From NCBI GenBank assembly GCA_963281255.1, contig OY725492.1, positions 806,001-870,000 of the forward strand: 64,000 bases of DNA, read 5' to 3'. Both the position numbers and the translations under genes were made by a program. The DNA comes from Aphrocallistes beatrix. Lineage: Eukaryota; Porifera; Hexactinellida; Sceptrulophora; Aphrocallistidae. The notes under the pieces are model-generated. The model ran no database searches. It saw only the letters and a program-made list of their open reading frames with translations, and was not told the origin of the DNA. Positions 1 to 62,717 of this stretch are shown here, one piece after another (the first letter of the stretch is position 1; the number at the start of each line of letters is the position of its first letter).

Positions 1-207
1 GTAGAAGTCCAGTCAGAATTACAGACATTGTGTCAATAGTTAGATTCAAAGATCTTTCAGTTGTATCCAACTCAAATCCATTATATATAACTTGGTAACT
101 TGTTAAAACTCCATTTTGATCCATCAATTCTGGAGCATTCCATTCTGCCTGTATTGCAGTGCTGTTTATACTATATACTGTGAAGTTAATTGGAGGAGTT
201 GAAGGAA
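1..207 (-). CDS. FN3 exon, U0 slot A (cut by window edge)
   Basis: First 69 codons of an FN3 exon; the rest lies left of the window. It carries the slot A marks: N-F-T-V-Y-S near residue 8, F-E-L-D-T-T-E-R (which removes the residue-43 sequon) and L-N-L-T-I-D. No stop is present in the visible part. The intron on its right (208-415) is the short, conserved A-B intron. Confidence 0.88.
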
Positions 208-415
208 CTAGAAAGAGATGGAAGAACTAATAGAAGACTCTTAGTTAGAATAATTCATCAATCAAAAGTAAAAAGAAAGCAAAGATACTTTAAAATTGCC
301 TCTCTTGAGTGGTTCTATAACTAATCGAAAATTAAAATAGGTTTCAATATATTATATACAGCATCATGTTTGACATTTTGACATGTATATCTAACTAATT
401 ATGCATAAATCTTAC

Positions 416-715
416 TTGCTTCGTGAGTGCGTGCACAATTTGGAAAACTAAATTTACTGAATCCTGCTCCGTTTCCAACGCGAACCAATACACAATAATA
501 AACATTTGGTAGAAGTCCAGTCAGAATTACAGACATCGTGTTAATACTTAGATTCAGAACTCTTTCAGTTGTATCCAACACTGATCCATTATATCTAACT
601 TGGTAACTTGTTAAAACTCCATTTTGATTTATCAATTCAGGAGCATTCCATTCTGCCTGTATCGCAGTGCTGTTTAAGGGAAATACTGAGAGGTTAACTG
701 GAGGAGTTGAAGGAA
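416..715 (-). CDS. FN3 exon, U0 slot B
   Basis: Complete 300-bp domain exon. Slot B marks are S-V-F-P-L-N-S-T near the start and S-V-L-D-T-T-E-R-V-L in the middle. Here D30 of the D-Q-N-G turn is N (I-N-Q-N-G) and the end reads S-K-F-S-F-P-N-C. Donor A|GTAAGA, acceptor TAG. All four sequons are intact. Confidence 0.92.
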
Positions 716-1393
716 CTAGAAATAGATGTATGTAGGTGAATATAGTTCATTAATGCACTCTAAAAATAGTATGGTTAGAAAGTACAATTAAATTAAAGCA
801 TGTATTATTGTATCAATGTTTAGTCCCTTTATCCATTCATATATTATTTAGTAATATAATTAAATGACGATGACTCGTTTATAGGCAACCTTACATGTTA
901 AAGTTTTTACCGAAACAAGCATTTATTATCTAAGTTCTAGATCACAACTACATATTTTCACTAGTTGTTACTCCAACTGATTCAAATAATAACTCTTTTT
1001 AAATAATAACTCTTTTCAAATAACAAAGTAACTACGTATGTTTGCGTTCTAAGTAGAGTGATTCCTTAGAACAGAGTCTGGATGAGCTTCTTTTGAAATA
1101 GTACCAGAGAAAACTGCATATTTTACAATATTTCTTTTCTGAAATTAAATTATAAAAAAGTTACAATTATAAAATTTTATATTGTCACATATCACAAATG
1201 ATTGGCAATCTATTTAAGTAGACAAATTATCAAAACTTTCAGTCTCCTTAGAAAATTAGATTCAATTGGAATCTATGTTTCCACATTTTTGTTGGAGCAA
1301 GATTATTGTAAATCAATTAGAAAAACGCTCATACATAGACAGATTTACTCAATTTGAGAATTCAGAGCATAACTGGAGCACACTAAATCTTAC
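716..1393 (-). other. B-H intron of U0
   Basis: Intron of 678 bp. Most of it aligns by eye with the U4 B-H intron (57177-57778), including a run about a calcium-free AT-rich stretch with GATTCC and GCTTCTTT motifs. No gene, RNA or mobile element was recognised. Confidence 0.6.
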
Positions 1394-1693
1394 TTGCTTC
1401 GTGAGTGCGTGCACAATTTGGAGAACTAAATTCACTGAATCCTGCTCCGTTTTCAATCCGAATTATTACACAGTAATAAACATTTGGTAGAAGTCCAATC
1501 AGAATTACAGACATCGTGTTAATACTTAGATTCAAAGATATTTCAGTTGTATCCAACTCTGAACCACTATATCTAACTAGGTAACTTGTTAAAACTCCAT
1601 TTTGATCTATCAATTCAGGAGCATTCCATTCTGCCTGTATCGCAGTGCTGTTTATGGAATATACTGTGATGTTAACTGGAGGAGTTGAAGGAA
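1394..1693 (-). CDS. FN3 exon, U0 slot H
   Basis: Complete domain exon. Reads Y-L-V-R-Y-S-G-S-E-L-D with N43 replaced by S, so one sequon is lost, then T-E-I-S-L and I-I-R-I-E-N-G-A-G. The right-hand intron starts with the slot H signature (ACAACACT, then a T-run and ATTAATAG) shared with U1 and U4. Confidence 0.92.
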
Positions 1694-2021
1694 CTAGAAA
1701 TAGATGCATGTAGGTGAATACAACACTCTAATTTTTTTATATAATAATATTAATAGTATAGAATCATTAACATTGAATATTTCATCAATCGTGATTATAA
1801 TAGGGGCTCGTTTCATCTCTGATATACTGATAATTTAATTAAATATGAAATCAGATGAAACAAAGTTCAAATGATGTTATTATCAACTTTGATATCAAAA
1901 AAATAACTTCTATATTAATAATATACAGGGTGCCTCAAAAGTTCTTTAGCAAGCAATTTACTTTCGTGATTTGACTAAGATTAGTTGTAGGGCATTAATC
2001 GATCCTCAAAAAAAGGATCTA

Positions 2022-4945: not shown

Positions 4946-5245
4946 CTGCTTCGTGAGTGCGTGTACAATTCGCAGAACTAAATTCACTGAATCCAGCTCT
5001 GTTTTCAACACGAATCATCACACAGTAATACACATTTGGTAGAAGTCCAGTCAGAATTACAAACATCGTGTTAATACTTATATTCAAAGATCTTTCAGTT
5101 GTATCCAACTCTGATCCATTGTATCTAATTTGGTAAATTGTTAAAACTCCATTTTGATCTATCAATTCAGGAGCATTCCATTCTGCCTGTATCGCCGTGC
5201 TGTTTATGGAATACACTGTGAGGTTAATTGGAGGAGTTGAAGGGA
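4946..5245 (-). CDS. FN3 exon, U0 slot K
   Basis: Complete domain exon with donor G|GTATAG, typical of slot K, and acceptor TAG|TCCC. Differences from siblings: T-M-F-V-I-L-T, E-N-R-A-G instead of E-N-G-A-G, and S-S-A-N-C-T-R-T near the end. All four sequons are retained. A transposon end at 4927 lies 18 bp into its downstream intron, leaving the donor intact. Confidence 0.9.
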
Positions 5246-6150: not shown

Positions 6151-6450
6151 CTGCTTCTTGCGTGCGAGCACAATTCGGAGAACTAAATTCACTGAATCCA
6201 GCTCCGTTTCCAACACGAATCATTACACAGTAATAAACATTTGATAGAAGTTCAGTCAGAAATACGGACATCGTGTTAATACTTAGATTCAAAGAAATTT
6301 CAGTTGTATCCAACTCTAAACCAAGATATCTAACTTGGTAACTTGTTAAAACTCCATTTTGATCTATCAATTCAGGAGCATTCCATTCTGCCTGTATCGC
6401 AGTGCTGTTTAAAGAATATACTGTCAAGTTAACTGGAGGAGTTGAAGGGA
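6151..6450 (-). CDS. FN3 exon, U0 slot L (K-like downstream end)
   Basis: Complete domain exon. Its transcript-upstream part and flanking intron (ACAAATATAAG) match slot L, while its downstream end (GCGAGCACAATTCGG on plus) and flank match slot K of U3 and U4. Distinct residues: Y-L-G-L-E-L-D (residue-43 sequon lost), S-V-F-L-T-E-L-L-S-N. Donor G|GTAAAG. Confidence 0.9.
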
Positions 6451-7664: not shown

Positions 7665-7964
7665 TTGCTTCTTGAGTGCGTGCACAATTTGGAGAACTAA
7701 ATTTACTGAATCCTGCTCCATTTTCAATCCGAATTATTAGACAGTAATAAACATTTGGTAGAAGGTCAGTCAGAATTACAGACATCGTGTTAATACTTAG
7801 ATTCAGAACTCTTTCAGTTGTATCCAACACTGATCCATTATATCTAACTTGGTAACTTGTTAAAACTCCATTTTGATCTATCAATTCAGGAGCATTCCAT
7901 TCTGCCTGTATCGCAGTGCTGCTTAAGGGAAATACTGTGATGTTAACTGGAGGAGTTGAAGGAA
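7665..7964 (-). CDS. FN3 exon, U0 slot M
   Basis: Complete domain exon. Its start reads F-P-L-S-S-T, so the residue-15 sequon is lost (N to S) and the beginning looks slot-B-like; the rest and both flanks are slot M. Other marks: L-T-D-L-L-P-N, Y-Y-C-L-I-I-R-I, S-K-F-S-S. Donor A|GTAAGA. Confidence 0.9.
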
Positions 7965-8798: not shown

Positions 8799-9003
8799 CA
8801 ATTCCGGCTGATCAGGTCAACAAAAGGAGCGGACAAACTAGTTGAAGGAGGAGGATTCGTTTACGGGAAGCAGAGGAGAGTAGGATGTAACGCACTAGCA
8901 TGTGAGTGGAGATGAGTCTGTAAAGCAAGGATACACACCAGGGGTATGGAGATAGTCAAGCGTACCAGCGAGCATCTACATGCACCTGATAAGCAGGAGG
9001 TCT
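8799..9003 (+). pseudogene. FLYWCH zinc-finger fragment of a MULE-type element
   Basis: Plus-strand frame with one in-frame TGA. The translation has S-T-K-G-A-D-K-L-V, G-G-F-V-Y-G-K-Q-R-R, C-E-W-R-x-V-C-K-A-R-I-H-T and S-E-H-L-H-A-P-D: the spaced Cys...Cys...His-x-His pattern of FLYWCH fingers, which often sit before MULE transposase domains. At 9003 it joins head-on to the minus-strand relic at 9004-9818, and its last 65 bp recur inverted at 9690-9745. Rearranged and not functional. Confidence 0.75.
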
Positions 9004-9818
9004 TGATTGTAATCAGCTTGCAACCCTTCAGCTTGTATCTTGCGCCAGATATTCTGTGTGAGGTGAAAGAAGCAACACTTCACGAATGCCTCAGGGCAGA
9101 AATGCTCAAAGCTATTAATGGCAACCTTTTCGAAGTCCATGAGCATCTGAGTTGGGTGAGCTGTGGGACAGAGTACTACCTGGATCTGTTTCCACATCCT
9201 CATGTAAGTAGCTTGCGTCTTGTTAGGTAGGAGAACGAAGAGGCTCAGGAGAAGATGACCATGCTGTAAAGGGTCAGGTCCTCCACGAAATCCTTGTATT
9301 ACATATGCTTGTGCAGAAAGGGAAGGAACTGTTTTGAAGGTTCTATCAGCTAGTCAGACTTGGGATGCTTGCAGCATTAAAATAAGGATTCTCTGTGACT
9401 CAGGACCCGAGTCATAAAGAAGGAATTGCTCCTCTTAAGCTGTCTGCTGGTATTCCAATGGAAGATCGAGCTCTTCCAGAGTGGTAGGCTGTGCAGGTGC
9501 TGCAAGTATTCGCTTTCTTTGACGCTCTATTGTACGCTTCAGGTTGTCTAGCTTAGGCAACTTAGCAGCAGTTCCCTCAGACACTGTCTGAAGGCATTCT
9601 CCTACTATCGTATGTGAACTATCCTGAGTTTCGTATGCTCGCCTCTTAATGCCTACCTTAGTCTCACGACAACTCACCTCCTGCTTATCAGGTGCATGTA
9701 GATGCTCGCTGGCACGCTTGACAATCTCCATGCCCCTGGTGTGAATCCATGCTTTACAGAATTCACTCCAATCATATTTGCCATGCGTCATATCTCCTCT
9801 CTCCTCCTCCATTGACAT
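9004..9818 (-). pseudogene. MULE-type transposase relic
   Basis: Read leftwards: 9818-9435 gives the end of an FLYWCH domain (A-W-I-H-T-R-G, E-H-L-H-A-P-D) and a linker rich in R/K with A-A-K-L-P-K-L-D-N-L-K-R-T-I. After a frame change, 9430-9204 gives L-L-Y-D-S-G-P, A-D-R-T-F-K-T-V-P-S (MULE proteins usually have A-D-G-T-F) and L-L-P-N-K-T. Then 9203-9004 gives M-D-F-E-K-V-A-I-N, C-F-F-H-L-T-Q-N-I-W-R-K-I-Q and G-L-Q-A-D-Y-N-Q, the region around the second catalytic acid and the C-x-x-H motif. Stops and shifts show decay; the C-terminal part is missing, replaced by the inverted FLYWCH piece. Confidence 0.8.
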
Positions 9819-12498: not shown

Positions 12499-12798
12499 TT
12501 GCTTCGTGAGTGCGTGCACAATTTGGAGAACTAAATTCACTCGATCCTGCTCCGTTTCCAACGCGAACCATTACACAGTAATAAACATTTGGTAGAAGTC
12601 CAGTCAGATTTACAGACATCGTGTTAATATTTATATCCAAAAGTCTTTCAGTTGTATCCAACACCGATCCACTATATCTAACTTGGTATCGTGTTAAAAC
12701 TCCATTTTGATCTATCAATTCAGGAGCATTCCATTCTGCCTGTATCGCAGTGCTGCTTATGGAATATACTGTCAAGTTGAGTGGAGGAGTTGAAGGAA
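12499..12798 (-). CDS. FN3 exon, U1 slot G
   Basis: Complete domain exon. Slot G marks: T-P-P-L-N-L-T-V, V-L-T-R-Y-Q-V-R, L-L-D-I-N-I-N-T-M, S-V-N-L-T-G (a sequon found only in slot G) and V-R-V-G-N-G-A-G. Residue 15 is S (I-S-S-T), so that sequon is lost, and S-S-E-F replaces L-S-E-F. Confidence 0.92.
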
Positions 12799-13565: not shown

Positions 13566-13865
13566 TTGCTTCTTGAGTGCGGGCACAATTTGGGGAACTA
13601 AATTCACTCAATCCTGCTCCGTTTTCAATCCGAATTATTACACAATAATAAACATTTGGTAGAAGTCCAGTCAGAATTACAGACATCGTGTTAATACTCA
13701 GATTCAAAGTTCTTTCAGTTGTATCAAACTCAAATCCATTATATTTAACTTGGTAACTTGTTAAAACTCCATTTTGATCTATCAATTCAGGAGCATTCCA
13801 TTCTGCCTGTATTGCAGTGCTGTTTATACTATATACTGTGAAGTTAACTGGAGGAGTTGAAGGGA
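13566..13865 (-). CDS. FN3 exon, U1 slot A
   Basis: Complete domain exon with slot A marks V-N-F-T-V-Y-S-I-N and Y-N-G-F-E-F-D-T-T-E-R-T-L. I-I-R-I-E-N-G-A-G follows the Y-Y-C. The 213-bp intron to slot B on the right is of the short conserved type. Confidence 0.92.
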
Positions 13866-14078: not shown

Positions 14079-14378
14079 TTGCTTCTTGAGTGCGCGCACA
14101 ATTTGGGGAACTAAATTCACTCAATCCTGCTCCGTTTTCAACACGAATCATTACACAGTAATACACATTTGGTAGAAGTCCAGTCAGAATTACAGACATC
14201 GTGTTGACATTTAGATTCAGAACTCTTTCAGTTGTATCCAAAACTGATCCATTATATTTAACTTGGTAACTTGTTAAAACTCCATTTTGATCTATCAATT
14301 CAGGAGCATTCCACTCTGCCTGTATTGCAGTGCTGTTTAAGGGTAAAACTGTGATGTTAACTGGAGGAGTTGACGGAA
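14079..14378 (-). CDS. FN3 exon, U1 slot B
   Basis: Complete domain exon. Start reads V-N-I-T-V-L-P-L-N-S-T; the middle V-L-N-L-N-V-N-T-M loses the residue-55 sequon. M-I-R-V-E-N-G-A-G follows Y-Y-C. Donor A|GTAAGA. Confidence 0.92.
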
Positions 14379-15069: not shown

Positions 15070-15095
15070 TACATATAATTATGGCTAAATCTTAC

Positions 15096-15395
15096 TTGCT
15101 TCGTGAGTGCGTGCACAATTTGGAGAACTAAATTCACTCAATCCTGCTCTATTTTCAACCCGAATTATTACACAGTAATAAACATTTGGTAGAAGTCCAG
15201 TCAGAATTACAGACATCGTGTTAATACTTAGATTCAAAGATCTTTCAGTTGTATCCAACACTGATCCATTATATCTAACTTGGTAACTTGTTAAAACTCC
15301 ATTTTGATCTATCAATTCAGGAGCATTCCATTCTGCCTGTATTGCAGTGCTGTTTAAAGAATATACTGTCAAATTAACTGGAGGAGTTGAAGGAA
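15096..15395 (-). CDS. FN3 exon, U1 slot H
   Basis: Complete domain exon: V-N-L-T-V-Y-S-L-N, N-G-S-V-L-D-T-T-E-R-S-L, I-I-R-V-E-N-R-A-G-L. All four sequons intact. Its donor side carries the slot H flank ATGGCTAAATC. Confidence 0.92.
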
Positions 15396-16032: not shown

Positions 16033-16332
16033 CTGCTTCTTGAGTGCGTGCACAATTTTGAGGACTAAATTCACTAAATCCTGCCCCGTTTTCAACTCGA
16101 ATCAATACACAGTAATACACATTTGGTAGAAGTCCAGTCAGAATTACAGACATCGTGTTAATACTTAGATTCAGAACTCTTTCTGTTGTATCCAACACTG
16201 ATCCGTTATATTTAACTTGGTAACTTGTTAAAACTCCATTTTGATCTATCAATTCAGGAGCATTCCATTCTGCCTGTATTGCAGTGCTGTTTATGGAATA
16301 TACTGAGATGTTAATTGGAGGAGTTGAAGGAA
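16033..16332 (-). CDS. FN3 exon, U1 slot K
   Basis: Complete domain exon: I-N-I-S-V-Y-S-I-N start, V-L-D-T-T-E-R-V-L-N-L, V-L-I-R-V-E-N-G-A-G and the unusual F-S-P-Q-N-C. Donor G|GTAAGA. All four sequons intact. The flank GCGATATCTTCAGAAAC is shared with U4-K. Confidence 0.92.
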
Positions 16333-17473: not shown

Positions 17474-17773
17474 CTGCTTCGTGAGTGCGTGTACAATTTG
17501 GAGAACTAAATTCGCTCAATCCTGCTCCGTTTTCAACCCGAATTATTACACAGTAATAAGTATTTGGTAGAAGTTCAGTTAGGATTACAGACATCATGTC
17601 AATACTTAGATTCAGAACTCTTTCAGTTGTATCCAACACTGATCCACTATATCTAACTTGGTAACTTGTTAAAACTCCATTTTGATCTAACAATTCAGGA
17701 GCATTCCATTCTGCCTGTATCGCAGTGCTGTTTAAAGAATAAACTGTCAAGTTAACTGGAGGAGTTGAAGGAA
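17474..17773 (-). CDS. FN3 exon, U1 slot L
   Basis: Complete domain exon: P-E-L-L-D-Q-N-G, Y-S-G-S-V-L-D (residue-43 sequon lost), L-S-I-D-M-M, L-T-E-L-L-P-N-T-Y-Y. The D-M-M and N-T-Y-Y marks are shared with U2-L only. Donor G|GTAAGA. Confidence 0.92.
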
Positions 17774-19113: not shown

Positions 19114-19413
19114 TTGCTTCTTGAGTACGTGCACAATTTAGAGAACTAAATTCACTGAATCCTGCTCCATTTTCAATCCGAATTATTACACAGTAATAAA
19201 CATTTGGTAGAAGTCCAGTCAGAATTACAGACATCGTGTTAATACTTAGATTCAAAGATCTTTCAGTTGTATCCAACTCTGAACCATTATATCTAACTTG
19301 GTAACTTGTTAAAACTCCATTTTGATCTATCAATTCAGGAGCATTCCATTCTGTCTGTATCGCAGTGCTGTTTATGGAATATACTGAGATGTTAACTGGA
19401 GGAGTTGAAGGAA
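19114..19413 (-). CDS. FN3 exon, U1 slot M
   Basis: Complete domain exon: V-N-I-S-V-Y-S-I-N, A-I-Q-T-E-W (A21 changed to T), N-G-S-E-L-D-T-T-E-R-S-L, S-S-L-N-C. Four sequons intact. Donor A|GTAAGA. Confidence 0.92.
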
Positions 19414-20566: not shown

Positions 20567-20866
20567 TTGCTTCGTGAGTGCGTGCACAATTTGGAGAACT
20601 AAATTCACTCAACCCTGCTCCGTTTCCAACGCGAACCATTACACAGTAATAAACATTTGGTAGAAGTCCAGTCAGATTTACAGACATAGTGTTGATATTT
20701 ATATCCAAAAGTCTTTCAGTTGTATCCAACACCGATCCACTATATCTAACTTGGTAACGTGTTAAAACTCCATTTTGATCTATCAATTCTGGAGCATTCC
20801 ATTCTGCCTGTATCGCAGTGCTGTCTATGGAATAAACTGTCAAGTTGAGTGGAGGAGTTGAAGGAA
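20567..20866 (-). CDS. FN3 exon, U2 slot G
   Basis: Complete domain exon. T-P-P-L-N-L-T-V, S-I-D-S-T (N15 to D, sequon lost), L-L-D-I-N-I-N-T-M, S-V-N-L-T-G. Very close to U3-G and U1-G. Confidence 0.92.
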
Positions 20867-24019: not shown

Positions 24020-24319
24020 TTGCTTCGTGAGTGCGTGCACAATTTGGAGAACTAAATTCACTGAATCCAACTCCGTTTTCAACCCGAATTATTACACAAT
24101 AATAAACATTTGGTAGAAGTCCAGTCAGAATTACAGACATCGTGTCAATAGTTAGATTCAAATATCTTTCAGTTGTATCCAACTCAAATCCATTATATCT
24201 AACTTGGTAGCTTGTTAAAACTCCATTTTGATCTATCAATTCAGGAGCATTCCATTCTGCCTGTATCGCAGTGCTGTTTAAACTATATACTGTGAAGTTA
24301 ACTGGAGGAGTTGATGGAA
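24020..24319 (-). CDS. FN3 exon, U2 slot A
   Basis: Complete domain exon: V-N-F-T-V-Y-S-L-N, N-G-F-E-L-D-T-T-E-R-Y-L-N-L-T-I-D. G83 of the usual N-G-A-G is followed by V (N-G-V-G). Followed on its right by the 207-bp A-B intron. Confidence 0.92.
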
Positions 24320-24526: not shown

Positions 24527-24826
24527 TTGCTTCGAGAGTACGCGCACAATTTGGAGAACTAAATTCACTGAATCCTGCTCCGTTTCTAACGCGAACCAAT
24601 ACACAGTAATAAACATTCGGTAGAAGTCCAGTCAGAATTACAGACATCGTGTTAATACTTAGATTCAGAACTCTTTCAGTTGTATCCAACACTGATCCAT
24701 TATATTTAACTTGGTAACTTGTTAAAACTCCATTTTGATCTATCAATTCAGGAGCATTCCATTCTGCCTGTATCGCAGTGCTGTTTAAGGGAAATACTGT
24801 GATGTTAACTGGAGGAGTTGAAGGGA
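24527..24826 (-). CDS. FN3 exon, U2 slot B
   Basis: Complete domain exon: V-F-P-L-N-S-T, S-V-L-D-T-T-E-R-V-L, V-L-V-R-V-R-N-G-A-G (E81 or G81 replaced by R), A-R-T-L-E-A. The plus-strand end TTCGAGAGTACGCGC is shared with the chimeric exon of U3. Confidence 0.92.
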
Positions 24827-37894: not shown

Positions 37895-38895
37895 ACAAGC
37901 GCGCTTAGCGTGCTTGCGCTGCGCGGCTTGAGGACACTGCATATCCACAAAGTCGCGCTGCGAGCACTTGGAATAGCAAAGAAACGGTTGATTGTTTTCT
38001 AATTTTTTTCTATAAAACGTCATTTATCTACGGTGAATCTGAAATCAGAACTGGAAAAGAAAATTAGGTCCGAAGATAAAAAGAATTCGAAATCTACAAA
38101 CCTAAAAACAAATGCTAAAGGTTGAATGCTAGTTTCTAGCATATTTTTAAGATTTGTTTACTTAATGAATTTATTATAAACATAATTAAACAAATAATGT
38201 ATCACATAAATACTACAATATTATATTTGAAATCTACACGACTAAAACCTTATGTCAACTGCTGAAAGTTGGTCTCAAGCCTATTTGTGTAGTTTGTTTA
38301 CTTTATGTATATATTGTAGCAAAAGTAAACAAATATTTATCATGCAGATTCGAAAATACGATGTTCGAAATCTACAACCCAAAAACCCCATATTAACAAT
38401 TGGAAGCTAGTCTCTAGCCTATTTTTTGGAATTTGTTCACTTTATGTATTTATTGTAATCAAGAGTAAACGAATAATTTATTATATATATTGGAAATATA
38501 TATTCAGAGTCTACAACCTAAAACTACATGACAACCGTTGAATGAAAGTCTCTAGCATATTTTTAAAATTCGCCAAAAGGTGTGAAGATACACATATTAC
38601 ATTTAATATTGCTATGCACTATAAAATAATTAAGATATCTATATGAAATAACTTTTTGTTTGAAGTACTAATAACAATGATACTCTATTGAAGGTCCAAA
38701 CATTGATTTCTAATGTAAAAGTGAAGCCATATATTTTGAATAGAAGGTATTAAAAATGTTTTCCATTATTTTTGCAGAGTTGTCAAAATTTCGCTTAGAT
38801 CTTCGAACTTAACGTAGACTCATCATTTGACACCTACATGCCAATTTTAATATCGCTACGACTTTCCAATTCTTCATTTTTTTCTCTTTTGTTCG
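37895..38895 (-). mobile_element. Family Y element with GC module, U2 M-G intron
   Basis: Module at 37895-37972, body with repeated GTTGAATGCTAG and GCTAGTCTCTAGCCT phrases, then GCTTAGATCTTCGAACTTAA and CACCTACATGCCAATTTTAA near the head at 38800-38890. The terminal TTAAAACGC motif is missing. Confidence 0.6.
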
Positions 38896-39325: not shown

Positions 39326-39625
39326 TTGCTTCGTGAGTGCGTGCACAATTTGGAGAACTAAATTCACTCAATCCTGCTCTGTTTCCAACGCGAACCATCA
39401 CACAGTAATAAACATTTGGTAGAAGTCCAGTCAGATTTACAGACATTGTGTTAATATTTATATCCAAAAGTCTTTCAGTTGTATCCAACACCGATCCACT
39501 AAATCTAACTTGGTATCGTGTTAAAACTCCATTTTGATCTATCAATTCAGGAGCATTCCATTCTGCCTGTATCGCAGTGCTGTCTATGGAATAAACTGTC
39601 AAGTTGAGTGGAGGAGTTGAAGGAA
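39326..39625 (-). CDS. FN3 exon, U3 slot G
   Basis: Complete domain exon: S-I-D-S-T (sequon lost), R-Y-Q-V-R-F-S-G-S, L-L-D-I-N-I-N-T-M, S-V-N-L-T-G, G-N-R-A-G. The X terminal motif stands 190 bp to its left at 39113, as in U1 and U2. Confidence 0.92.
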
Positions 39626-42004: not shown

Positions 42005-42304
42005 TTGCTTCGTGAGTGCGTATACAATTTGGAGAACTAAATTCACTGAATCCTGCTCCGTTTTCAACACGAATTATTACACAGTAATAAACATTTGGGA
42101 GAAGTCCAGTCAGAAATACAGACATCGTGTCAATAGTTAGATTCAAAGATCTTTCAGTTGTATCCAACTCAAATCCATTATAAATAATTTGGTAACTTGT
42201 TAAAACTCCATTTTGGTCCATCAATTCAGGAGTATTCCATTCTGCCTGTATTGCAGTGCTGTTTAAACTATGTACTGTGAAGTCAACTGGAGGAGTTGAA
42301 GGAA
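42005..42304 (-). CDS. FN3 exon, U3 slot A
   Basis: Complete domain exon: V-D-F-T-V-H-S-L-N (N8 to D, sequon lost), E-W-N-T-P-E-L-M-D-Q, I-I-Y-N-G-F-E-L-D, L-T-I-D-T-M-S-V-F-L-T. The A-B intron to its right is 214 bp. Confidence 0.92.
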
Positions 42305-42518: not shown

Positions 42519-42818
42519 TTGCTTCGAGAGTACGCGCGCAATTTGGAGAACTAAATTCACTCAATCCTGCTCCGTTCCCAACGCGAACCTTTACACAGTA
42601 ATAAACATTTGGTTGAAGTCCAGTCAGAATTACAGACACCGTGTTAATAGGTAGATTCAAAGATCTTTCAGTTGTATCCAACACTGATCCATTATATCTA
42701 ACTTGGTAACTTGTTAAAACTCCATTTTGATTTATCAATTCAGGAGCATTCCATTCTGCTTGTATCGCAGTGCTGTTTAAAGAATATACTGTCAAGTTAA
42801 CTGGAGGAGTTGAAGGAA
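42519..42818 (-). CDS. FN3 exon, U3, chimera of slots B and H
   Basis: Complete, open, exactly 300 bp. The plus-strand left part (CGAGAGTACGCGC, ACGCGAACC) and left flank are slot B. From about 42641 the text is slot H (TTAATAGGTAGATTCAAAGATC, TTTTGATTTATC, Y-S-L-N-S-T), as is the right flank (ACAACACT, T-run, ATTAATAG). Thus the downstream third of the domain comes from B and the upstream two thirds from H. Residues include L-N-L-P-I (sequon lost, as in U4-H), N-T-V-S-V and L-Q-P-N. Confidence 0.92.
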
Positions 42819-44050: not shown

Positions 44051-44350
44051 CTGCTTCTTGAGTGCTAGCACAATTCGGAGAACTAAATTCACTCAATCCT
44101 GCACCGTTTTCAACACGAATCATTACACAGTAATAAACATTTGGTAGAAGTCCAGTCAGAATTACAGACATCGTGTTAATACTTAGATTCAAAGATCTTT
44201 CAGTTATATCCAACCCTGATCCATTATATCTAACTTGGTAACTTGTCAAAACTCCATTTTGATCTATCAATTCAGGAGCATTCCATTCTGCCTGTATCGC
44301 AGTGCTGTTTAAGGAATATACTGTGATGTTAACTGGAGGAGTTGAAGGGA
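44051..44350 (-). CDS. FN3 exon, U3 slot K
   Basis: Complete domain exon: V-N-I-T-V-Y-S-L-N, N-G-S-G-L-D-I-T-E-R-S-L (T49/T50 region altered), M-I-R-V-E-N-G-A-G-L, P-N-C-A-S-T (R96 to S). Donor G|GTATAG; acceptor TAG|TCCC. Confidence 0.92.
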
Positions 44351-44865: not shown

Positions 44866-46156
44866 CAGTCTGTCCGATAATTATTGAGAAAATGTTTAAT
44901 TGAATATCCTTAGTATTTGAAACGAAATTTCAATACCTATTCATCTGAATCTTAGATATTCCTCTATTTGATGGATATTTTTCTATAATTAGTATGGTAT
45001 AAACTTGGTTTTTTATTAAAATTATGCAAAAATATGTGATGCGTCATCATTACTTAGCACTATCTGACTAATGTTAGTTTGTTGTGAATTTCTAAAGAGC
45101 TTAGATACACTAGTTATTGAGATGTTTCAAGTTTCAAAGAGGAATGAAATTCGAACCCTCTGGACCTCAAAGATATACAACCCGAAACAAATTAGCCGAG
45201 CACTCGACGTTTCCTTAGCGACAGTCTACCGTGTAATTCGCCGAATTTCAGAACAACATTCACTAGATCACCATCGTGGTGCAGGAAGACCGGCTATAGT
45301 CTATCAGGCGATTAAGAAAAGTGTGGTTAAGCAAATCAGAGATGATCCAAAGGTCTCCATTCGCGAAATTTCATCGAAGTTACCTTGTTCAGCTAGCAAA
45401 ACAAGCGTCCATCGTTGTCTTAAAAAGTTGGATTATTCAAAGCCCTTTCCGAAGAAAGTTCCCATGTTGTCTGAGACAAATCGTATTAAACGTCTAGATT
45501 GGACAAGAACTAATATAGACAGACCGTGGAATCAAGCAATCTTCGCGGATGAAGCATCCTTTTGGCTTTTTGGTGGCTCAGTGAGGATGTGGACTAAGAA
45601 TAGTGAATTCAGAGTTTCCCCCACTGTTAAGCATAGGGACATTCCCACTCTGTATTTTCGAACACAATATGAACGGTGAATTCTTTGTGAAGATTCTAGA
45701 GGTTCATTTACTGGCGCAAGCAAATGTTTTTCATGAAAGAAATTGGTTTTTGGTACAGGTAATGATCCCAAACACACTTGTAAGAAGGCAAGGCATTGGA
45801 TGCAGCAAAATATGCCTCAAAACACCTTTGGTTGGCCAAGTCAGAGTCCTGATATCAACCCAATAGATAATCTATTCGGATGGATAAAGCATAACCTTAG
45901 TAGAGATCGACCAAGAACAAAATCAGACCTTAAAGATCGGATTTCTGTCTTATGGGATTCCATAACCCCGGAGTTTTTGGAACCTTACTGGTCTGCCGAA
46001 AAGGTGTCAAAAAGTGATCAACAGCAATGGTAACAAGATAAATTACTGATCATCAGACACATATAGTAATATTCTGCTTAAAATTTAATAATGGAATTGA
46101 ATAATTGATATTCATTTTAGTACTTAGGTGATTCTCAATAATTACCAGACAGACTG
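44866..46156 (+). mobile_element. Tc1-type transposon, 1,291 bp
   Basis: Ends CAGTCTGTCCGATAATTATT and inverse; the 25-bp terminal repeats (44866-44890 and 46132-46156) differ at two bases. A TA lies on each side, the Tc1 target. The interior carries a broken transposase (45071-46033). Full length and well-kept ends suggest a fairly recent arrival; it is plus-oriented, against the FN3 gene, in the K-L intron of U3 only. Confidence 0.92.
45071..46033 (+). pseudogene. Tc1-type transposase, frameshifted
   Basis: Frame 1 (45071-45679, 202 codons) has two helix-turn-helix regions (K-Q-I-S-R-A-L-D-V-S-L-A-T-V-Y-R; V-S-I-R-E-I-S-S-K-L), a G-A-G-R-P linker between them, and the first catalytic Asp in A-I-F-A-D-E-A-S-F. 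The frame then shifts to one reading H-N-M-N-G-E-F-F and Q-A-N-V-F-H-E-R-N-W, and again into G-N-D-P-K-H-T, W-P-S-Q-S-P-D-I-N-P-I-D-N-L-F-G-W-I-K, ending at 46033. The last shift falls in the codon of the second catalytic Asp, as if one base were lost. The third acid position is Asp (P-I-D-N) where Tc1 usually has Glu (P-I-E-N). Not functional as it stands. Confidence 0.9.
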
Positions 46157-47192: not shown

Positions 47193-47492
47193 CTGCTTCA
47201 TGAGTGCGTGAACATTTTGGAGAACTAAATTCACTCAATCCAGCTCCGTTTTCAACCCGAATTATTATACAGTAATAAACATTTGGTAGAAGTCCAGTCA
47301 GAATTACAGACATCGTGTTAATACTTAGATTCAAAGATCTTTCAGTTGTATCCAACTCTAAACCATTATATCTAATTTGGTAACTTGTTAAAACTCCATT
47401 TTGATGTATCAATTCAGGAGCATTCCATTCTGCCTGTATCGCAGTGCTGTTTAAAGAATCAACTGTGAAGTTAACTGGAGGAGTTGAAGGAA
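47193..47492 (-). CDS. FN3 exon, U3 slot L
   Basis: Complete domain exon: V-N-F-T-V-D-S-L-N, E-L-I-H-Q-N-G (D30 to H), Y-N-G-L-E-L-D (residue-43 sequon lost), Y-Y-C-I-I-I-R-V, S-P-K-C-S-R-T (N93 to K). Both Cys retained. Donor G|GTAAGA. Confidence 0.92.
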
Positions 47493-48126: not shown

Positions 48127-48426
48127 TTGCTTCTTGAGTGCGAGAACAATTTGGAGAACTAAATTCACTCAATCCTGCTCCGTTTTCAACACGAATCATT
48201 ACACAGTAATACACATTTGGTAGAAGTCCAGTCAGAATTACAGACATTGTGTTAATACTTAGATTCAAAGATCTTTCTGTCGTATCCAGCGCTGATCCAT
48301 TATATCTAACTTGGTAACTTGTTAACACTCCATTTTGATCTATCAATTCAGGAGCATTCCATTCTGCCTGTATCGCAGTGCTGTTTATTGAATATACAGA
48401 TATGTTAACTGGAGGAGTTGAAGGAA
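48127..48426 (-). CDS. FN3 exon, U3 slot M
   Basis: Complete domain exon: V-N-I-S-V-Y-S-I-N, N-G-S-A-L-D-T-T-E-R-S-L, M-I-R-V-E-N-G-A-G-L, P-N-C-S-R-T-Q. The spelling CTTTCTGTCGTATCCAGC on plus is shared only with U4-M. Confidence 0.92.
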
Positions 48427-50698: not shown

Positions 50699-50998
50699 TT
50701 GCTTCGTGAGTGAGTGCACAATTTGGAGAACTAAATTCGCTCAATCCTGCTCCGTTTCCAACGCGAACCATTACACAGTAATAAACATTTGGTAGAAGTC
50801 CAGTCAGAATTACAGACATAGTGTTAACATTTATATCCAAAAGTCTTTCAGTTGTATCCAACACCGATCCACTATATCTGACTTGGTATCGTGTTAAAAC
50901 TCCATTTTGATCTATCAATTCTGGAGCATTCCATTCTGCCTGTATCGCAGTGCTGTTTATGGAATAAACTGTCAAGTTGACTGGAGGAGTTGAAGGAA
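50699..50998 (-). CDS. FN3 exon, U4 slot G
   Basis: Complete domain exon: T-P-P-V-N-L-T-V, S-I-N-S-T (residue-15 sequon kept, unlike other G exons), L-L-D-I-N-V-N-T-M, S-V-I-L-T-G (slot G sequon lost), C-A-L-T-H (R96 to L). Confidence 0.92.
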
Positions 50999-53653: not shown

Positions 53654-53953
53654 TTGCTTCGTGAGTGCGCGTACAAATTGGAGAACTAAATTCACTGAAT
53701 CCGGCTCCGTTTTCAATCCGAATTATTGCACAATAATAAACATTTGGTAGAAGTCCAGTCAGAATGACAGACATCGTGTCAATAGTTAGATTCAAAGATC
53801 TTTCAGTTGTATCCAACTCAAATCCATTATATATAATTTGGTAACTTGTTAAAACTCCATTTTGATCTATCAATTCAGGAACATTCCATTCTGCCTGTAT
53901 TGCAGTGCTGTTTAAACTATATACTGTGAAGTTAACTGGAGGAGTTGAAGGAA
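53654..53953 (-). CDS. FN3 exon, U4 slot A
   Basis: Complete domain exon: V-N-F-T-V-Y-S-L-N, E-W-N-V-P-E-L, I-I-Y-N-G-F-E-L-D, Y-Y-C-A-I-I-R-I, S-S-P-I-C-T-R-T (N93 to I). The A-B intron to its right is 2.9 kb instead of the usual 207-214 bp. Confidence 0.92.
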
Positions 53954-54103: not shown

Positions 54104-54983
54104 CAAACCGCGTTTCGCTTACTTGCACTCCGCGGCTTGCGGACACTTTGTGCACGCAGAGTCGCCCTTTGGGCGACAGGAGTTACTCAATCTAACATAT
54201 TTTGGGATTTTGTTAACTTTATATAAATATTGTAAACAAAAGTTACTAATAATTTCGAATATGTATCCGAAAATATAATATTCGAACTCTACACCCCTAA
54301 TCCCATGCCAAGCGTTGGAAGCTAGTCTCTAGCTTATTTTTGTAATTTGTTCACTTAATGTAACTATTGTAAACAAAAGTAAACAAATAATTTATCATAT
54401 AGATTCAAAAATATAATATTCGAACAATACACCCCTAAATCCCATTCCAAGCGTTGGAAGCTAGTTTCTAGCTTATTTTTGTAATTTGTTTACTTAATGT
54501 AACTATTGTAAACAAAAGTAAACAAATAATTTATCATATAGATTCAAAAATATAATATTCGAACTCCCCACCCCTAAAACCCCCATGTCAACCGTTGGAA
54601 GCTAGTCGCTAGCATACTTTTCAAAATTCGTCAAATGGTGTTAAAATATTTATATAAAGGTGTGAAAATGAACACAAAACCTTTTTTATTGCTATACACT
54701 ATAATATAATTGAGACAGCTATATAAGTTATTGCTTTGAAATATTAATAACAATGACAGCCTACAATAGTATCGTACAATGATTTCTATTGTGAGAGTGA
54801 AGCCGTACATAGTATTCTAAAAATAGAAAAGGTGCGAAAATTTTACTCATATCTTTGAACTTAATCGTAGATTCATCATTTGACACCTACATGGCAATTT
54901 TCATATTCCTACGACTTGCCAATTCTTCAATCAATTTGGACAAACAAACAAAAAAACTCCTGGCGTTTTAGTATATAAGATGA
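54104..54983 (-). mobile_element. Family Y element
   Basis: Module 54104-54180 (GTCGCCCTTTGGGCGAC palindrome), body with three GTTGGAAGCTAG phrases about 130 bp apart, head CTCCTGGCGTTTTAGTATAT. First of several insertions that lengthen the U4 A-B intron. Confidence 0.65.
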
Positions 54984-55729: not shown

Positions 55730-56109
55730 CAAGCACGCTTCGCTTGCTTGCGCTGCGCGGCTTGCAGACACTTTGTGTCCGCAGAGTCTCTCTGCGGGCG
55801 CCTGGAGTTTATCAATCTAGCTTATTTTGGGAGTTTGGTCACTTTATATAAATATTGTAAACAATATTAAACAAATAATTTCTCATATAGCTTCGAAAAT
55901 ATGATATTCGAAATCTACATCCCTGAAAATCCTATGTCAACCGTTGGAAGCTGTTTCTAGCCTATTTTAGTAATTTGTTTACTTTATGTATCTATTGTAA
56001 ACAAAAGTAAACAAATTAATTATCAAATTTACTCGAAAATATGATATTCGAAATCTACACCCCTGAAAACCCCATGTCACCAGTTGGAAGCTAGTCTCTA
56101 GCATATTTT
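55730..56109. mobile_element. GC module and Y-type body, truncated
   Basis: Module 55730-55803 begins after a short AT run that ends the X copy. Body to CTAGTCTCTAGCATATTTTA, where AT-only DNA takes over. Confidence 0.6.
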
Positions 56110-56183
56110 ATAATAATTATATAATAATTATATAATTATTGTATGATAATTATATAATTATCATATAATTATTATATAATTAT
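56110..56183. repeat. AATTATATAATAATTAT low-complexity palindromic run
   Basis: 74 bp of A and T (with two exceptions) made of ATAATTATAT units inverse to each other. Confidence 0.85.
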
Positions 56184-56876: not shown

Positions 56877-57176
56877 TTGCTTCGTGCGTGCGTTCACAAT
56901 TTGGAAAACTAAATTCACTCAATCCTGCTCTGTTTCCAACGCGAATCAATACACAGTAATAAACATTTGGTAGAAGTCCAGTCAGAATTACAGACATCGT
57001 GTTAATACTTAGATTCAGAACTCTTTCAGTTGTATCCAAAACAGTTCCATTATATTTAACTTGGTAACTTGTTAAAACTCCATTCTGATCGATCAATTCA
57101 GGAGCATTCCATTCTGCCTGTAACGCAGTGCTGTTTAAAGGAAATACTGTGATGTTAACTGGAGGAGTTGAAGGAA
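56877..57176 (-). CDS. FN3 exon, U4 slot B
   Basis: Complete domain exon: V-F-P-L-N-S-T-A-L, Y-N-G-T-V-L-D (sequon N-G-T), V-L-I-R-V-G-N-R-A-G, S-F-P-N-C-E-R-T. Four sequons kept. Confidence 0.92.
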
Positions 57177-57955: not shown

Positions 57956-58030
57956 AAAAAATAAAAATAAAAACCATAATATTTGAACCCTGGATAGGTG
58001 TGTATACATATAATTATGGCTAAATCTTAC

Positions 58031-58330
58031 TTGTTTCGTGAGTGCGTGCACAATTTGGAGAACTAAATTCACTCAATCCTGCTCCGTTTTCAACACGAAT
58101 CATTACACAATAATAAACATTTGGTAGAAGTCCAGTCAGAATTACAGACATCGTGTTAATAGGTAGATTCAAAGATCTTTCAGTTGTATCCAACACTGAT
58201 CCAATATATCTAACTTGGTAACTTGTTAAAACTCCATTTTGATTTATCAATTCAGGAGCATTCCATTCTGCCTGTATTGCAGTGCTGTTTAAAGAATATA
58301 TTGTGAAGTTAACTGGAGGAGTTGAAGGAA
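58031..58330 (-). CDS. FN3 exon, U4 slot H
   Basis: Complete domain exon: V-N-F-T-I-Y-S-L-N, E-L-I-N-Q-N-G, R-Y-I-G-S-V-L-D (residue-43 sequon lost), S-L-N-L-P-I (residue-55 sequon lost), M-I-R-V-E-N-G-A-G-L, T-H-E-T. Best match for the H part of the U3 chimera. Confidence 0.92.
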
Positions 58331-59686: not shown

Positions 59687-59986
59687 CTGCTTCTTGAGTG
59701 CGAGCACAATTCGGAGGACTAAATTCACTCAATCCTGCCCCGTTTTCAACTCGAATTATTACACAGTAATAAACATTTGGTAGAAGTCCAGTCAGAATTA
59801 CAGACATCGTGTTAATACTTAGATTCAAAGATCTTTCAGTTGTATCCAACACTGATCCATTATATCTAACTTGGTAACTTGTTAAAACTCCATTTTGATC
59901 TATCAATTCAGGAGCATTCCATTCTGCCTGTATCGCAGTGCTGTTTAAGGAATATACTGTGATGTTAACTGGAGGAGTTGAAGGAA
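59687..59986 (-). CDS. FN3 exon, U4 slot K
   Basis: Complete domain exon: V-N-I-T-V-Y-S-L-N, N-G-S-V-L-D-T-T-E-R-S-L, I-I-R-V-E-N-G-A-G-L, F-S-P-P-N-C. Four sequons intact. Donor G|GTATAG. Its right flank (TGTAAGGAGAATGTAATTC) is shared with U3-K. Confidence 0.92.
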
Positions 59987-60141
59987 CTACAAAGAGATGT
60001 ATGTAAGGAGAATGTAATTCATTGTAACTACTTGTAGCATTTCGAAAAATTTTGATGGTTTTTGATACTTCAATGCTTTAATTAAATGTTCATCGCTAAT
60101 TATATATCAAATTATCGATTTTGATTGCCTTATCATAGAAA

Positions 60142-60613
60142 ACGAGCGTGCTTCGCTTGGTTGCGCTGCACAGCTGACGGACACTTTGTGTCCGTCAGAG
60201 GAGCCCTTTCGCCGCCTAGGTATACTTTGATTAATTATAAGGTAGAGAACATCTCTAAATATGTCTGTCTTACTGTTTTAATCGATATTATCGATATGAA
60301 AATCAAAAAATTTTCGATTTTTGATACGTAATGATGACGTCATAACAGAGTCATGAGTCTTCTTTTTTTGATGAGAGTTATATCATATATGAGGTATATT
60401 AAAATACATCTTATATATTAAAACGCTAGGATTTTTTGATTTTTTAGTCGAAAAACGAAATTTCGAATTATAAAAAGGTGACAATGACGTGATAATTCCA
60501 TGATGAGTCGACATTTTCGTCTGAGATCAGAACTTAGTGGAGGCATAGCAAAATGACTCCCACATGCCAAAAATCAGCTTCCGGGAACTGGTTTCTTCAA
60601 ACAATTCGTTACA
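60142..60613 (+). mobile_element. Family X element with small nested Y-head fragment
   Basis: Module 60142-60220, body, then a 40-bp Y head piece (CTTATATATTAAAACGCTAG at 60405), then the rest of X to CAATTCGTTACA at 60613. Same location as the X copy at 44501 in U3. Confidence 0.65.
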
Positions 60614-60649
60614 AATATAGACATTGTAATAGAATGTGTATATCAATAT

Positions 60650-61471
60650 AAAAATGACGACTCATCACTGTCATGGCGTTATTATAAGTTGTCTAAAATT
60701 GACAAATTTCGTGATTTTGGGGTATAATCGATTTTAACAGTAAGACAGATGTTTTTAGAGATGTTTCTACCTTATAAATACTCCATATAAGCCTAGGCGG
60801 AAACAAAGCGTCTGCCAGCCGTGCAAGAATTTAAAATCAATATTTGGATACTGATGAAAAGTTGGAATTTTCCCATTGAAAATGGTTTGGAAATCAAATT
60901 TGTAAATAAAACTTTTTAAAATCGTGAAATAAGCGCATTAAAAGGTTAGTAAATAACCTAAACCGATGTGAACAAATATTAGAAAGGTGTTGTGTGATAA
61001 AATGATATAATGCTTTTTTGATTTTTGCCAAATTTTGCAACTTAAAAAGTGGGATAAAAGTGTCAGTGAATTGAATAAAATACATAATTCCCCATCCGTT
61101 GGTTCAAATGCTTCAAAGAAGTCAATCTATATGATATTTGATACGTAGAATGGAATAGAATGCTTAGTTTTGCCCTAAATTTGCATATAACTGAAATACA
61201 TCCAAGGGAACTACAAAAATAAATTAAAAATGCAGTATTCTAAACCAGTGTTTAAAATCAAGTGCAGTAACCACAATACTCATAATATCAAATCAAAATT
61301 AAAATTACCAATCAAAGGCTAATCCTCTATGGAATATTGCAGGCAAATCGAAAATATATAATATTCATTACTCTCTTATATACAGATTTGGATCACTATT
61401 TATTGATTGACCCAAGGATTTTAAGGATTTTTGAATATTCATAGTATATATTTATTCTGCATAAATCTTAC
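60650..61471 (-). other. K-L intron of U4, conserved part
   Basis: Starts with an X-derived piece (TCATGGCGTTATTATAAG to GCCGTGCAAG) and continues as sequence nearly identical to 46545-47192 of U3. No gene seen. Confidence 0.6.
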
Positions 61472-61771
61472 CTGCTTCGTGAGTGCGTGTACAATTTGGA
61501 GAACTAAATTCACTCAATCCTGCTCCATTTTCAACCCGAATTATTATACAGTAATAAACATTTGGTAGAAGTCCAGTCAGAACTACAGACATTGTGTTGA
61601 TACTTAAATTCAAAGATCTTTCAGTTGTATCCAACTCTGATCCATTATATCTAACTTGGTAACTTGTTAAAACTCCATTTTGATCTATCAATTCAGGAGC
61701 ATTCCATTCTGCCTGTATCGCAGTGCTGTTTAAAGAATATACTGTCAAGTTAACTGGAGGAGCTGAAGGAA
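61472..61771 (-). CDS. FN3 exon, U4 slot L
   Basis: Complete domain exon, the only one starting P-S-A-P-P. V-N-L-T-V-Y-S-L-N, N-G-S-E-L-D-T-T-E-R-S-L, S-V-V-L-T-G, Y-Y-C-I-I-I-R-V. Four sequons kept. Donor G|GTAAGA. Confidence 0.92.
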
Positions 61772-62417
61772 CTACAAATATAAGCATGTTGGTGAATGTT
61801 ACATACTAATTCGGTTTTTGAGATAGTACTATTAATACTCAAGAATCATTAACAAAATAATATTTCATCAATCATGGGTATAATTTGAGTTATTTTTATT
61901 TGAGGTATAATGGAGCGAAACCCACTTTTTTTAGCAAAGAAAAGTGGATATATAACATACTTAATATATGGCAGTGTCTGTCACGGATATACCAGTTTAT
62001 AATTTTTATCCATGAGCAAATTTCTCCTGAAAAAAGAAATGGTTGAAGCATCATGCTCGATTGGAAACGTAGTTAGCATTTGACATGACCATCTACTTTT
62101 GAATACAATTAGTGCTAGATTGGTCTAAATGTTTGAATAAAGAAATGAAACAAGTGAAGTTAGACATTAGCAAGTCTCTCTTATCAAGATATCATCAGGA
62201 AATTTAAATATTCACCTGAAAAATTATAACAACAGAGTTATCGAAATGGTGAAATGTACCTATCCATACTTTTAAAAAAATGGTATGCAGAAAAGCAAAG
62301 AAAGCCGTAGTTGACTCACATAAAAGAGTATATTATCTAGAAAATTCCAGGGGTAATAATATAAACGTAGATAGAAAGCAATATTTACAAAGAAATCTCA
62401 TTATGCTCAAATCTTAC
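61772..62417 (-). other. L-M intron of U4 (uninterrupted form)
   Basis: 646 bp paralogous to 47493-48126 along its length, without insertions. No gene seen. Confidence 0.65.
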
Positions 62418-62717
62418 TTGCTTCTTGAGTGCGTAAACAATTTGGAGGACTAAATTCACTGAATCCTGCTCCGTTTTCAACACGAATCATTACACAGTAA
62501 TACACATGTGGTAGAAGTCCAGTCAGAATTACAGACATCGTGTTAATACTTAGATTCAAAAATCTTTCTGTCGTATCCAGCACCGATCCATTATATTTAA
62601 CTTGGTAACTTGTTAAAACTCCATTTTGATCTATCAATTCAGGAGCATTCCATTCTGCCTGTATCGCAGTGCTGTTTATGGAATATACAGAGATGTTAAC
62701 TGGAGGAGTTGAAGGAA
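62418..62717 (-). CDS. FN3 exon, U4 slot M (most upstream in transcript)
   Basis: Complete domain exon: V-N-I-S-V-Y-S-I-N, N-G-S-V-L-D-T-T-E-R-F-L, L-P-H-V-Y-Y (N71 to H), F-S-P-P-N-C-L-R-T. Its preceding exon, expected to be a slot G of the next unit, lies right of the window. Confidence 0.92.

Follow-up and report, generated by a model that had tools for sequence, protein, structure and literature searches.

Seven-exon block duplication and probable exon-confined exchange in the FN3 array of a putative adhesion receptor gene from the sponge Aphrocallistes beatrix

The human NBPF genes contain 3mer higher-order repeats, the Olduvai triplets, in which each monomer is about 1.6 kb long and carries two exons, and the excerpted text of PMC9584774 places the copies at about 1–2% divergence and the monomers at about 17–19%. 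The super-repeats of the titin A-band likewise present FN3 domains in a fixed order within repeated blocks, for which duplication of the super-repeat is invoked in the excerpt of PMC10665226. The present account concerns a stretch of 64,000 nucleotides of Aphrocallistes beatrix, referred to as the window, which occupies positions 806001–870000 of contig OY725492.1 (written C6 below) in a genome of 100.5 Mb and 28 contigs, and which is traversed by a minus-strand array of FN3 exons. As in NBPF, to the extent that the same excerpt describes it, the array is a tandem higher-order repeat of exon–intron monomers within a gene, with distinct monomer types in a fixed order. Unlike NBPF, however, it has seven monomers of one exon each, its exon copies differ by about 7% and its monomers by about 10%, and the contrast between copies and monomers lies in the introns.

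A pattern scan for exon starts locates 33 FN3 exons in the window, all on the minus strand, of which 32 are complete; the remaining one is cut by the window start, and its missing part was taken from the locus next to it. Each of the 33 measures exactly 300 nucleotides, is free of stop codons and is bounded by an AG acceptor and a GT donor, and the joints are throughout at a split codon in phase 1 (phase 1-1), so that each exon encodes a 100-residue module. The initial annotation had sorted them into seven types in a fixed order over five units, and this arrangement is borne out. When each exon is given a slot letter from its place in the cycle, which the transcript reads as M-L-K-H-B-A-G and the plus strand as G-A-B-H-K-L-M, the units are U4 (exons 15–21), U3 (exons 22–27, six only), U2 (exons 28–34), U1 (exons 35–41) and U0 (exons 42–47, without G). 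A DNA profile of the window exons extends the array to 63 minus-strand exons at C6:761363–894630, about twice the length first recognised, and the seven-slot order runs through it in seven passes, one of them with six exons, and part of an eighth. Upstream of the window, exons 2–14 keep the order as a partial unit with one extra exon, exon 5, followed by a full unit; downstream, exons 48–55 keep it, the last four less certainly. Exon 1 has no slot, exons 56–61 form a separate tail, and exons 1–61 lead to an open 3' end beyond which exons 62 and 63 lie. Exactly 300 nucleotides are kept by 60 of exons 1–61, and the three full units of the window span 6915 to 17292 bp in length.

A period of seven is far beyond chance, the slot labels themselves being taken from position in the cycle. 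Mean identity at a lag of seven is 0.925 for the window exons against a permutation mean of 0.905 (standard deviation 0.003), 0.598 against 0.472 (0.024) for the 150 bp of upstream flank and 0.619 against 0.503 (0.016) for the 150 bp of downstream flank, and the lag-7 peak persists with all 63 exons. The same-slot excess was unreached in 5000 shuffles of slot order within units, with z values of 10.8 for exons, 12.6 for upstream and 10.4 for downstream flanks. Over the 62 introns of the whole array, edge-anchored shared sequence amounts to 8072 bp at lag 7, compared with 717, 234, 100, 233, 200 and 1215 bp at lags 1 to 6 and 470 bp at lag 8. Further peaks appear at lag 14 and at lags 13, 20, 27, 34 and 41, the latter set being the shift expected from the six-exon unit. 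The marks proposed for individual types were also recovered: LLDIN is present in all four G exons, FELD in four of five A exons (the other reads FEFD) and FPLN in three of four B exons (the other reads LPLN). Of the donor classes, G is the last exon base in all ten K and L exons, whilst 22 of the other 23 exons end in A, the exception being exon 31 (25459–25758), a K-like exon in an H slot. The intron mark of H, ATGGCTAAAT, has three copies in the window, all of them lying 15 bp below H exons; it accompanies three of the four H exons and no other exon.

The seven-exon duplication is recorded mainly in the introns. Leave-one-out assignment returns the positional slot in the window for 29 of 30 assignable upstream flanks and 23 of 23 assignable downstream flanks (of 32 exons), but for only 22 of 32 coding sequences; over the whole array the figures are 43 of 44, 36 of 36 and 37 of 52. 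This assignment replaced flank classes from raw BLAST-score clustering, which were noisy, and edge-anchored sequence was used instead of an all-intron BLAST between units, in which 82 of 187 high-scoring segment pairs matched other junctions; most of these off-junction matches are probably mobile elements. It had been expected that trees of exons and of flanks would both cluster by slot. This holds largely for the flanks (8 label changes upstream and 9 downstream, where the minimum is 6 and shuffled labels give about 22) and less well for the 33 window exons (11 changes), whilst clustering by adjacency is seen only for K30 and H31. In the exon tree only A (supports 96/89) and G (100/100) are clades, B needs two changes, and four are required for each of M, L, K and H, a count that for H is no improvement on shuffled labels and for the other three is scarcely one. 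Single clades are formed by L, A and G in the upstream-flank tree and by M and K in the downstream-flank tree, the other slots needing two or three changes.

Divergence follows the same pattern. Of 168 same-slot pairs, 88 can be aligned in the upstream flank and 73 in the downstream flank, and these differ by 0.110 and 0.123, whereas different-slot flanks can be aligned in only 18 and 6 of 1158 pairs. In the exons, synonymous divergence (dS) is 0.132 within slots (162 pairs) and 0.172 between them (1113 pairs), nonsynonymous divergence (dN) is 0.060 and 0.090, and dN/dS is about 0.45–0.52; homology between slots stops about 27 nucleotides above and 20 nucleotides below the exon, which is the extent of the splice signals. 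Copies that are much closer than monomers, as in NBPF, are thus found in the introns, and the exons show 93.1% same-slot against 90.2% different-slot identity between units. The analogy with alpha-satellite DNA drawn by the initial annotation accordingly suits the introns and is weak for the exons. Same-slot flanks also contain 280 gaps in 11535 aligned columns upstream and 244 in 9543 downstream, against the near-constant exon length, and the reading frame is under strong selection with a moderate amino-acid constraint (dN/dS about 0.5). Flank divergence rises little with the distance between units (0.110 at one unit, 0.133 at six and 0.155 at seven, the last from 4 alignable pairs), and therefore no order of unit duplication is proposed. 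The exons of the window, with the basis of the slot where coding sequence and position differ, are as follows.

1–207, minus strand: FN3 exon 47, slot A of U0; remainder at C6:805908–806000, below the window
416–715, minus strand: FN3 exon 46, slot B of U0
1394–1693, minus strand: FN3 exon 45, slot H of U0, from the upstream flank; coding sequence M-like
4946–5245, minus strand: FN3 exon 44, slot K of U0
6151–6450, minus strand: FN3 exon 43, slot L of U0, from upstream flank and donor; coding sequence nearest K
7665–7964, minus strand: FN3 exon 42, slot M of U0, from both flanks; coding sequence B-like
12499–12798, minus strand: FN3 exon 41, slot G of U1; LLDIN
13566–13865, minus strand: FN3 exon 40, slot A of U1; FEFD variant
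14079–14378, minus strand: FN3 exon 39, slot B of U1; LPLN variant
15096–15395, minus strand: FN3 exon 38, slot H of U1, from the upstream flank; ATGGCTAAAT at 15081; AlphaFold model made
16033–16332, minus strand: FN3 exon 37, slot K of U1, from the downstream flank; coding sequence an M/K tie
17474–17773, minus strand: FN3 exon 36, slot L of U1
19114–19413, minus strand: FN3 exon 35, slot M of U1, from both flanks; coding sequence nearest H
20567–20866, minus strand: FN3 exon 34, slot G of U2
24020–24319, minus strand: FN3 exon 33, slot A of U2
24527–24826, minus strand: FN3 exon 32, slot B of U2
25459–25758, minus strand: FN3 exon 31, slot H of U2, from position and ATGGCTAAAT at 25444; exon K-like
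27765–28064, minus strand: FN3 exon 30, slot K of U2
35904–36203, minus strand: FN3 exon 29, slot L of U2
37559–37858, minus strand: FN3 exon 28, slot M of U2, from both flanks
39326–39625, minus strand: FN3 exon 27, slot G of U3
42005–42304, minus strand: FN3 exon 26, slot A of U3
42519–42818, minus strand: FN3 exon 25, H/B hybrid of U3
44051–44350, minus strand: FN3 exon 24, slot K of U3
47193–47492, minus strand: FN3 exon 23, slot L of U3, from both flanks
48127–48426, minus strand: FN3 exon 22, slot M of U3
50699–50998, minus strand: FN3 exon 21, slot G of U4
53654–53953, minus strand: FN3 exon 20, slot A of U4
56877–57176, minus strand: FN3 exon 19, slot B of U4
58031–58330, minus strand: FN3 exon 18, slot H of U4; ATGGCTAAAT at 58016
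59687–59986, minus strand: FN3 exon 17, slot K of U4
61472–61771, minus strand: FN3 exon 16, slot L of U4, from both flanks
62418–62717, minus strand: FN3 exon 15, slot M of U4

Within the exons the variable sites behave as a mosaic. Linkage, measured as r2 over 78 informative sites in 60 exons, falls from 0.104 for sites 1–4 nucleotides apart to 0.025 for those 220–299 apart, with a correlation between r2 and distance of -0.144 that none of 2000 permutations equalled. All four gametes are present for 2191 of 3003 site pairs, a figure without a chance baseline. The longest shared runs of the 1113 different-slot pairs sum to 32395, compared with 26039 after column shuffling (standard deviation 1170; maximum of 200 shuffles 30671), and 8.9% of these pairs reach 0.01 singly. 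Three exons show more direct traces. Exon 25 has H-type sites to about nucleotide 228 and B-type sites thereafter, together with a B downstream flank, and U3 has six exons because exon 25 is this H/B hybrid. Exon 5, outside the window, has A-type sites to about nucleotide 71 and then B-type sites, and is bordered upstream by A-type flank (score 287) and downstream by B-type flank (291). Both would be the products expected from crossing-over inside exons, the one removing and the other adding an exon. Exon 31 shares 99% identity with K30 over 192 bp of upstream flank, whilst the H mark is kept below it. The proposal that the gene grew by duplicating seven-exon blocks is thus upheld by introns that align by slot, but its rider, "rather than single exons", is too strong, since the exon 5 hybrid adds one exon, the exon 25 hybrid removes one and exon 31 copies its neighbour K30.

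The array is probably explained by seven-exon block duplication combined with exchange confined to exons. An ancestral block of seven FN3 exons would have been tandemly duplicated via unequal exchange, and the near-identical exons of 300 nucleotides would then offer short stretches of homology at which one exon could undergo gene conversion, and now and then crossing-over, with another. Such exchange may change exon number singly, as in exons 5 and 25, or in blocks. As the exons are of equal length and phase 1-1, exchange between them keeps the frame and yields usable hybrids; as it would be confined to exons, the introns would hold the seven-slot register whilst the coding sequence is partly homogenised.

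A paralogous array about 0.5 Mb away provides an outside comparison. It lies on the plus strand and starts at C6:1374225; the 32 exons that were read (C6:1403539–1469304, loci L029–L035) are the part that follows its first stretch, and a 7tm_2 domain then comes at C6:1488072. Among its flanks are several that correspond to slots M, L, K, H, B, A and G of the first array, and the downstream flanks of its last six exons match those of exons 56–61 in order. Its period is mainly 19 exons: pairs at lag 19 align in 7 of 13 cases upstream and 5 of 13 downstream, with 0–2 aligned pairs at lags 1, 6, 7 and 13 and none at the remaining lags to 24. The slot types therefore seem, on these flank matches, to predate the split of the arrays, and the higher-order period differs between the loci. 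For the 12 of 32 paralogous exons with a clear flank slot, same-slot dS across the arrays is 0.183 (86 pairs), and the corresponding flanks differ by 0.166 upstream, in the 48 of those pairs that can be aligned, and by 0.164 downstream, in the 35 that can. If the slots are older than the split, different-slot exons that had never exchanged should exceed 0.183, and the value observed within the first array is 0.172. Strong concerted evolution had been expected from this contrast, and near-equality was found instead; what is claimed is that exons have probably exchanged since roughly the time of the array split, rather than that recent homogenisation is demonstrated.

Several observations weigh against the combination of block duplication and exon exchange, or loosen it. 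Cross-array same-slot dS exceeds within-array different-slot dS by a mean of only 0.004, is higher in 24 of 51 exons and is on average lower in four of the seven slots (H, B, A and G). About half of the same-slot flanks are unalignable, so that intron divergence is measured on the survivors, and the linkage and shared-run signals could be raised by variable sites that selection has clustered. The upstream flank of exon 25 is assigned weakly to K (72, against 63 for M), although it matches exon 17 of the paralogous array (119), an exon that holds the H position there. Moreover, exon 12 (C6:873485–873782, locus L019, outside the window) differs in length and contains a frameshift and an in-frame stop, which may be either a real change or an assembly error, and a gap of 200 N lies at C6:891597–891796, also outside the window and near one end of the array.

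The near-zero cross-array contrast is also what would be seen if no exchange had occurred, and exon-only copies had been inserted shortly before the seven-exon block was duplicated, so that the slots never shared introns and owe their likeness to a young common exon ancestor. Such copying would give homology between slots that ends just outside the exon, at the 27 and 20 nucleotides observed, and a different-slot dS that is little above the same-slot value, as it is. It does not, however, account for linkage that decays within 300 nucleotides or for the excess of shared runs, nor for the 10 window exons, out of 32, whose class disagrees with their positional slot, even though the margins there are often small. 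Exon 31, as a copy, and the hybrid exons 5 and 25 moreover look like direct products of exchange, and the exon-only scheme is regarded as rather unlikely.

A second possibility concerns use rather than origin, and is compatible with the duplication history: the exons may be alternatively spliced in the manner of Dscam instead of building a constitutive rod. With phase 1-1 and a uniform 300 nucleotides any subset of exons joins in frame, and the frameshifted exon 12 would need to be skipped. K-mers of 9, 10 and 12 nucleotides, considered as candidate docking or selector elements, are common to many introns, but those that were placed sit at the two splice sites beside the exons, and distant selector/docker pairs may lie elsewhere; GAAGCGCGCTTG, GCAGCGCAAGCA and GATTGATGAAAT, found in 11–12 of 60 introns (GAAGCGCGCTTG in 12), are unplaced. 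Rods of tandem FN3 domains, each domain encoded by its own exon, are common, which counts against alternative splicing too, and it is considered rather unlikely.

Likeness of exons across slots might instead be held by selection on codons and splice signals, without exchange. Consistent with this, length and splice sites are kept in 60 of 61 exons, both cysteines (Cys75 and Cys94) and 25 residues do not vary among the 60 that were scored (1–61 without exon 12), and dN/dS is about 0.45–0.52. Same-slot dS is nevertheless as large as same-slot intron divergence (0.132 against 0.11–0.12), and synonymous sites therefore evolve about neutrally; constraint, furthermore, predicts neither mosaics nor hybrid exons, making this explanation quite improbable. 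An assembly artefact in slot order or copy number, to which the 200-N gap might point, is scarcely credible, since the window contains no N, same-slot exons differ by about 7% between units, flank indels are many, unit lengths differ and the paralogous array has the same slot types on the opposite strand.

The window looks like the middle of one minus-strand adhesion G-protein-coupled receptor (GPCR) gene with about 61 FN3 domains. Along the minus strand, pairs of C-type-lectin and Ig exons come first, followed by the FN3 exons (about 61), by an exon with HRM and lastly by one with GAIN-like, seven-transmembrane (7TM) and tail sequence, and the FN3 exons and the 7TM frame share a strand and open splice sites. 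An open TSP3-like/HRM frame lies downstream of the FN3 exons at C6:773672–774223, and a 686-residue open frame at C6:769696–771756 matches 7tm_2 (PF00002, E 3.8e-33, 115 bits, cut-off 20.6); no 7tm_2 match appears between C6:770907 and C6:936385 among the matches listed. The Pfam models fn3, 7tm_2, HRM and Lectin_C score above cut-off. The GAIN model PF16489 beside the 7TM part falls just short (E 9.2e-6, 25.7 bits, cut-off 26.5), as do Ig_3 (26.9 against 30) and ig (21.2 against 21.8), and TSP_3 reaches 18.7 of 25 bits, all of which tells against the assignment. Before the first transmembrane segment the frame reads, by eye, LTCDSGHSTAFVVLIG, with H-S-T where the usual motif of a GPCR proteolysis site, H-L-T/S, would stand.

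At the 5' end, four C-type-lectin/Ig-like exon pairs stand in tandem at about C6:895700–904110 (minus strand, loci L021–L022) as a second, two-exon repeat, of which one pair was scanned by Pfam and the others resemble it by eye; a partial lectin exon lies at C6:905561. At the other end, about C6:757000–763000 (minus strand, L014), are exons 62 and 63, the latter without a donor GT, together with a second, broken version of the TSP3/HRM/GAIN/7TM end. Elsewhere, intronless long frames with many FN3 domains and 7tm_2 occur at C19:2152523–2163412 (5186 residues), C19:2387336–2393107 (2759) and C1:766305–773993 (3276), so that FN3 adhesion GPCRs seem to exist here in an intron-rich and an intronless form. 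Matches to 7tm_2 were found at 134 places genome-wide, many of them clustered on C4 (150 candidates scored, some genes being counted twice by exon), and the adhesion-GPCR repertoire is large for a 100-Mb genome. Domains of the fibrillar-collagen C-terminal and nuclear-receptor kinds are present in the genome, whereas the scans for Wnt and innexin gave no match, though they gave none in control genomes either; this fits an animal and perhaps a glass sponge, a group for which PMC10280926 reports Wnt to be absent.

The module encoded by exon 38 matches fn3 (PF00041, E 6.5e-13), and its AlphaFold model, for which all 32 complete window exons served as input, shows seven strands and a mean predicted local distance difference test score of 83.1. 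PDB profile matches of the domain are to RPTP, Robo, Dscam and contactin chains. N-glycosylation sequons occur at residues 8, 15, 43 and 55 in 56, 50, 28 and 39 of the 60 exons. What is known of adhesion GPCRs suggests an adhesion or force-sensing receptor, in which the ectodomain would bind ligands and the GAIN-7TM part would signal. The product would be a long, glycosylated, disulphide-bearing FN3 stalk that carries the lectin and Ig domains away from the GAIN-7TM unit, with its length tuned by repeat number. As each FN3 domain measures about 3–4 nm, a stalk of 61 domains is predicted to reach about 200 nm.

The introns of the window also hold other elements. A MULE transposase fragment lies at 8976–9353 on the minus strand, and a Tc1/mariner-like transposase frame at 45068–45679 on the plus strand, both in array introns. 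Nested inverted repeats at 2055–2750, with arms 2134–2237/2569–2672 (95%) and 2055–2140/2665–2750 (91%), are probably one foldback element. Tandem repeats are found at 29029–29279, 31479–31703, 33657–33884, 38272–38523, 54191–54621 and 55816–56114; their kinds are a 12-bp unit repeated 21 times, units of 61–62 bp with long G and C runs, and a 139–140-bp unit at three places.

A speculative extension, and on balance an unlikely one, is that, whilst the diverged introns keep a fixed seven-slot register, conversion confined to exons continually reshuffles FN3 surfaces and their number, such that individuals carry different receptor arms for a recognition akin to that of self and non-self. On this view the higher-order period, seven in this array and mainly 19 in its paralogue, would be replaced over time in the manner of satellite DNA.

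Comparison with the described systems brings out what is particular to this locus. Titin, as the excerpt of PMC10665226 portrays it, is an intracellular muscle protein with Ig domains in its block and its best-conserved part in one long exon. The present array has one domain per exon, a block of FN3 only, a predicted place in a surface receptor, and both an intron register and exon mosaics. Nebulin is built of seven-module super-repeats, with actin-binding modules of about 35 residues. Its super-repeats and triplicate region are, like the sponge array, repeated multi-exon blocks in a giant gene, although the sponge modules are extracellular FN3 domains. In piccolo b of teleosts a zinc-finger exon is present in 8 to 16 amplified copies, for which unequal crossover between homologous exon sequences is the explanation given, which is a likeness, but the excerpt of PMC3484663 describes gains and losses of individual exons and no seven-slot order.

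Amongst receptors, ADGRV1 uses Calx-beta repeats. The adhesion GPCRs of Amphimedon resemble the gene as predicted here in combining 7tm_2 with HRM and long ectodomains, and fn3 and Ig appear in the legend of the sponge domain figure (excerpt of PMC4302439). VLGR1 (ADGRV1) is called the largest member (excerpt of PMC9146371); an FN3 array of such size is not found for either in those excerpts. Among the open-access literature matches listed, none describes an FN3-exon higher-order repeat or FN3-array adhesion GPCR of this size, or a split between intron register and exon mosaic. The locus adds a putative giant FN3-arrayed adhesion GPCR and a paralogue with a different higher-order period. Repetitive proteins are usually too diverged or too homogenised for their growth to be read, whereas here one gene probably records two processes, block duplication in its introns and exon-confined exchange in its exons, with hybrid breakpoints that can be mapped. 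It thereby becomes testable whether one-exon-per-domain arrays of equal length and phase evolve by conversion within exons. Coding higher-order repeats are already known from NBPF and titin, to the extent of the excerpts cited, and it is the split between register and mosaic in which the sponge array differs from them.

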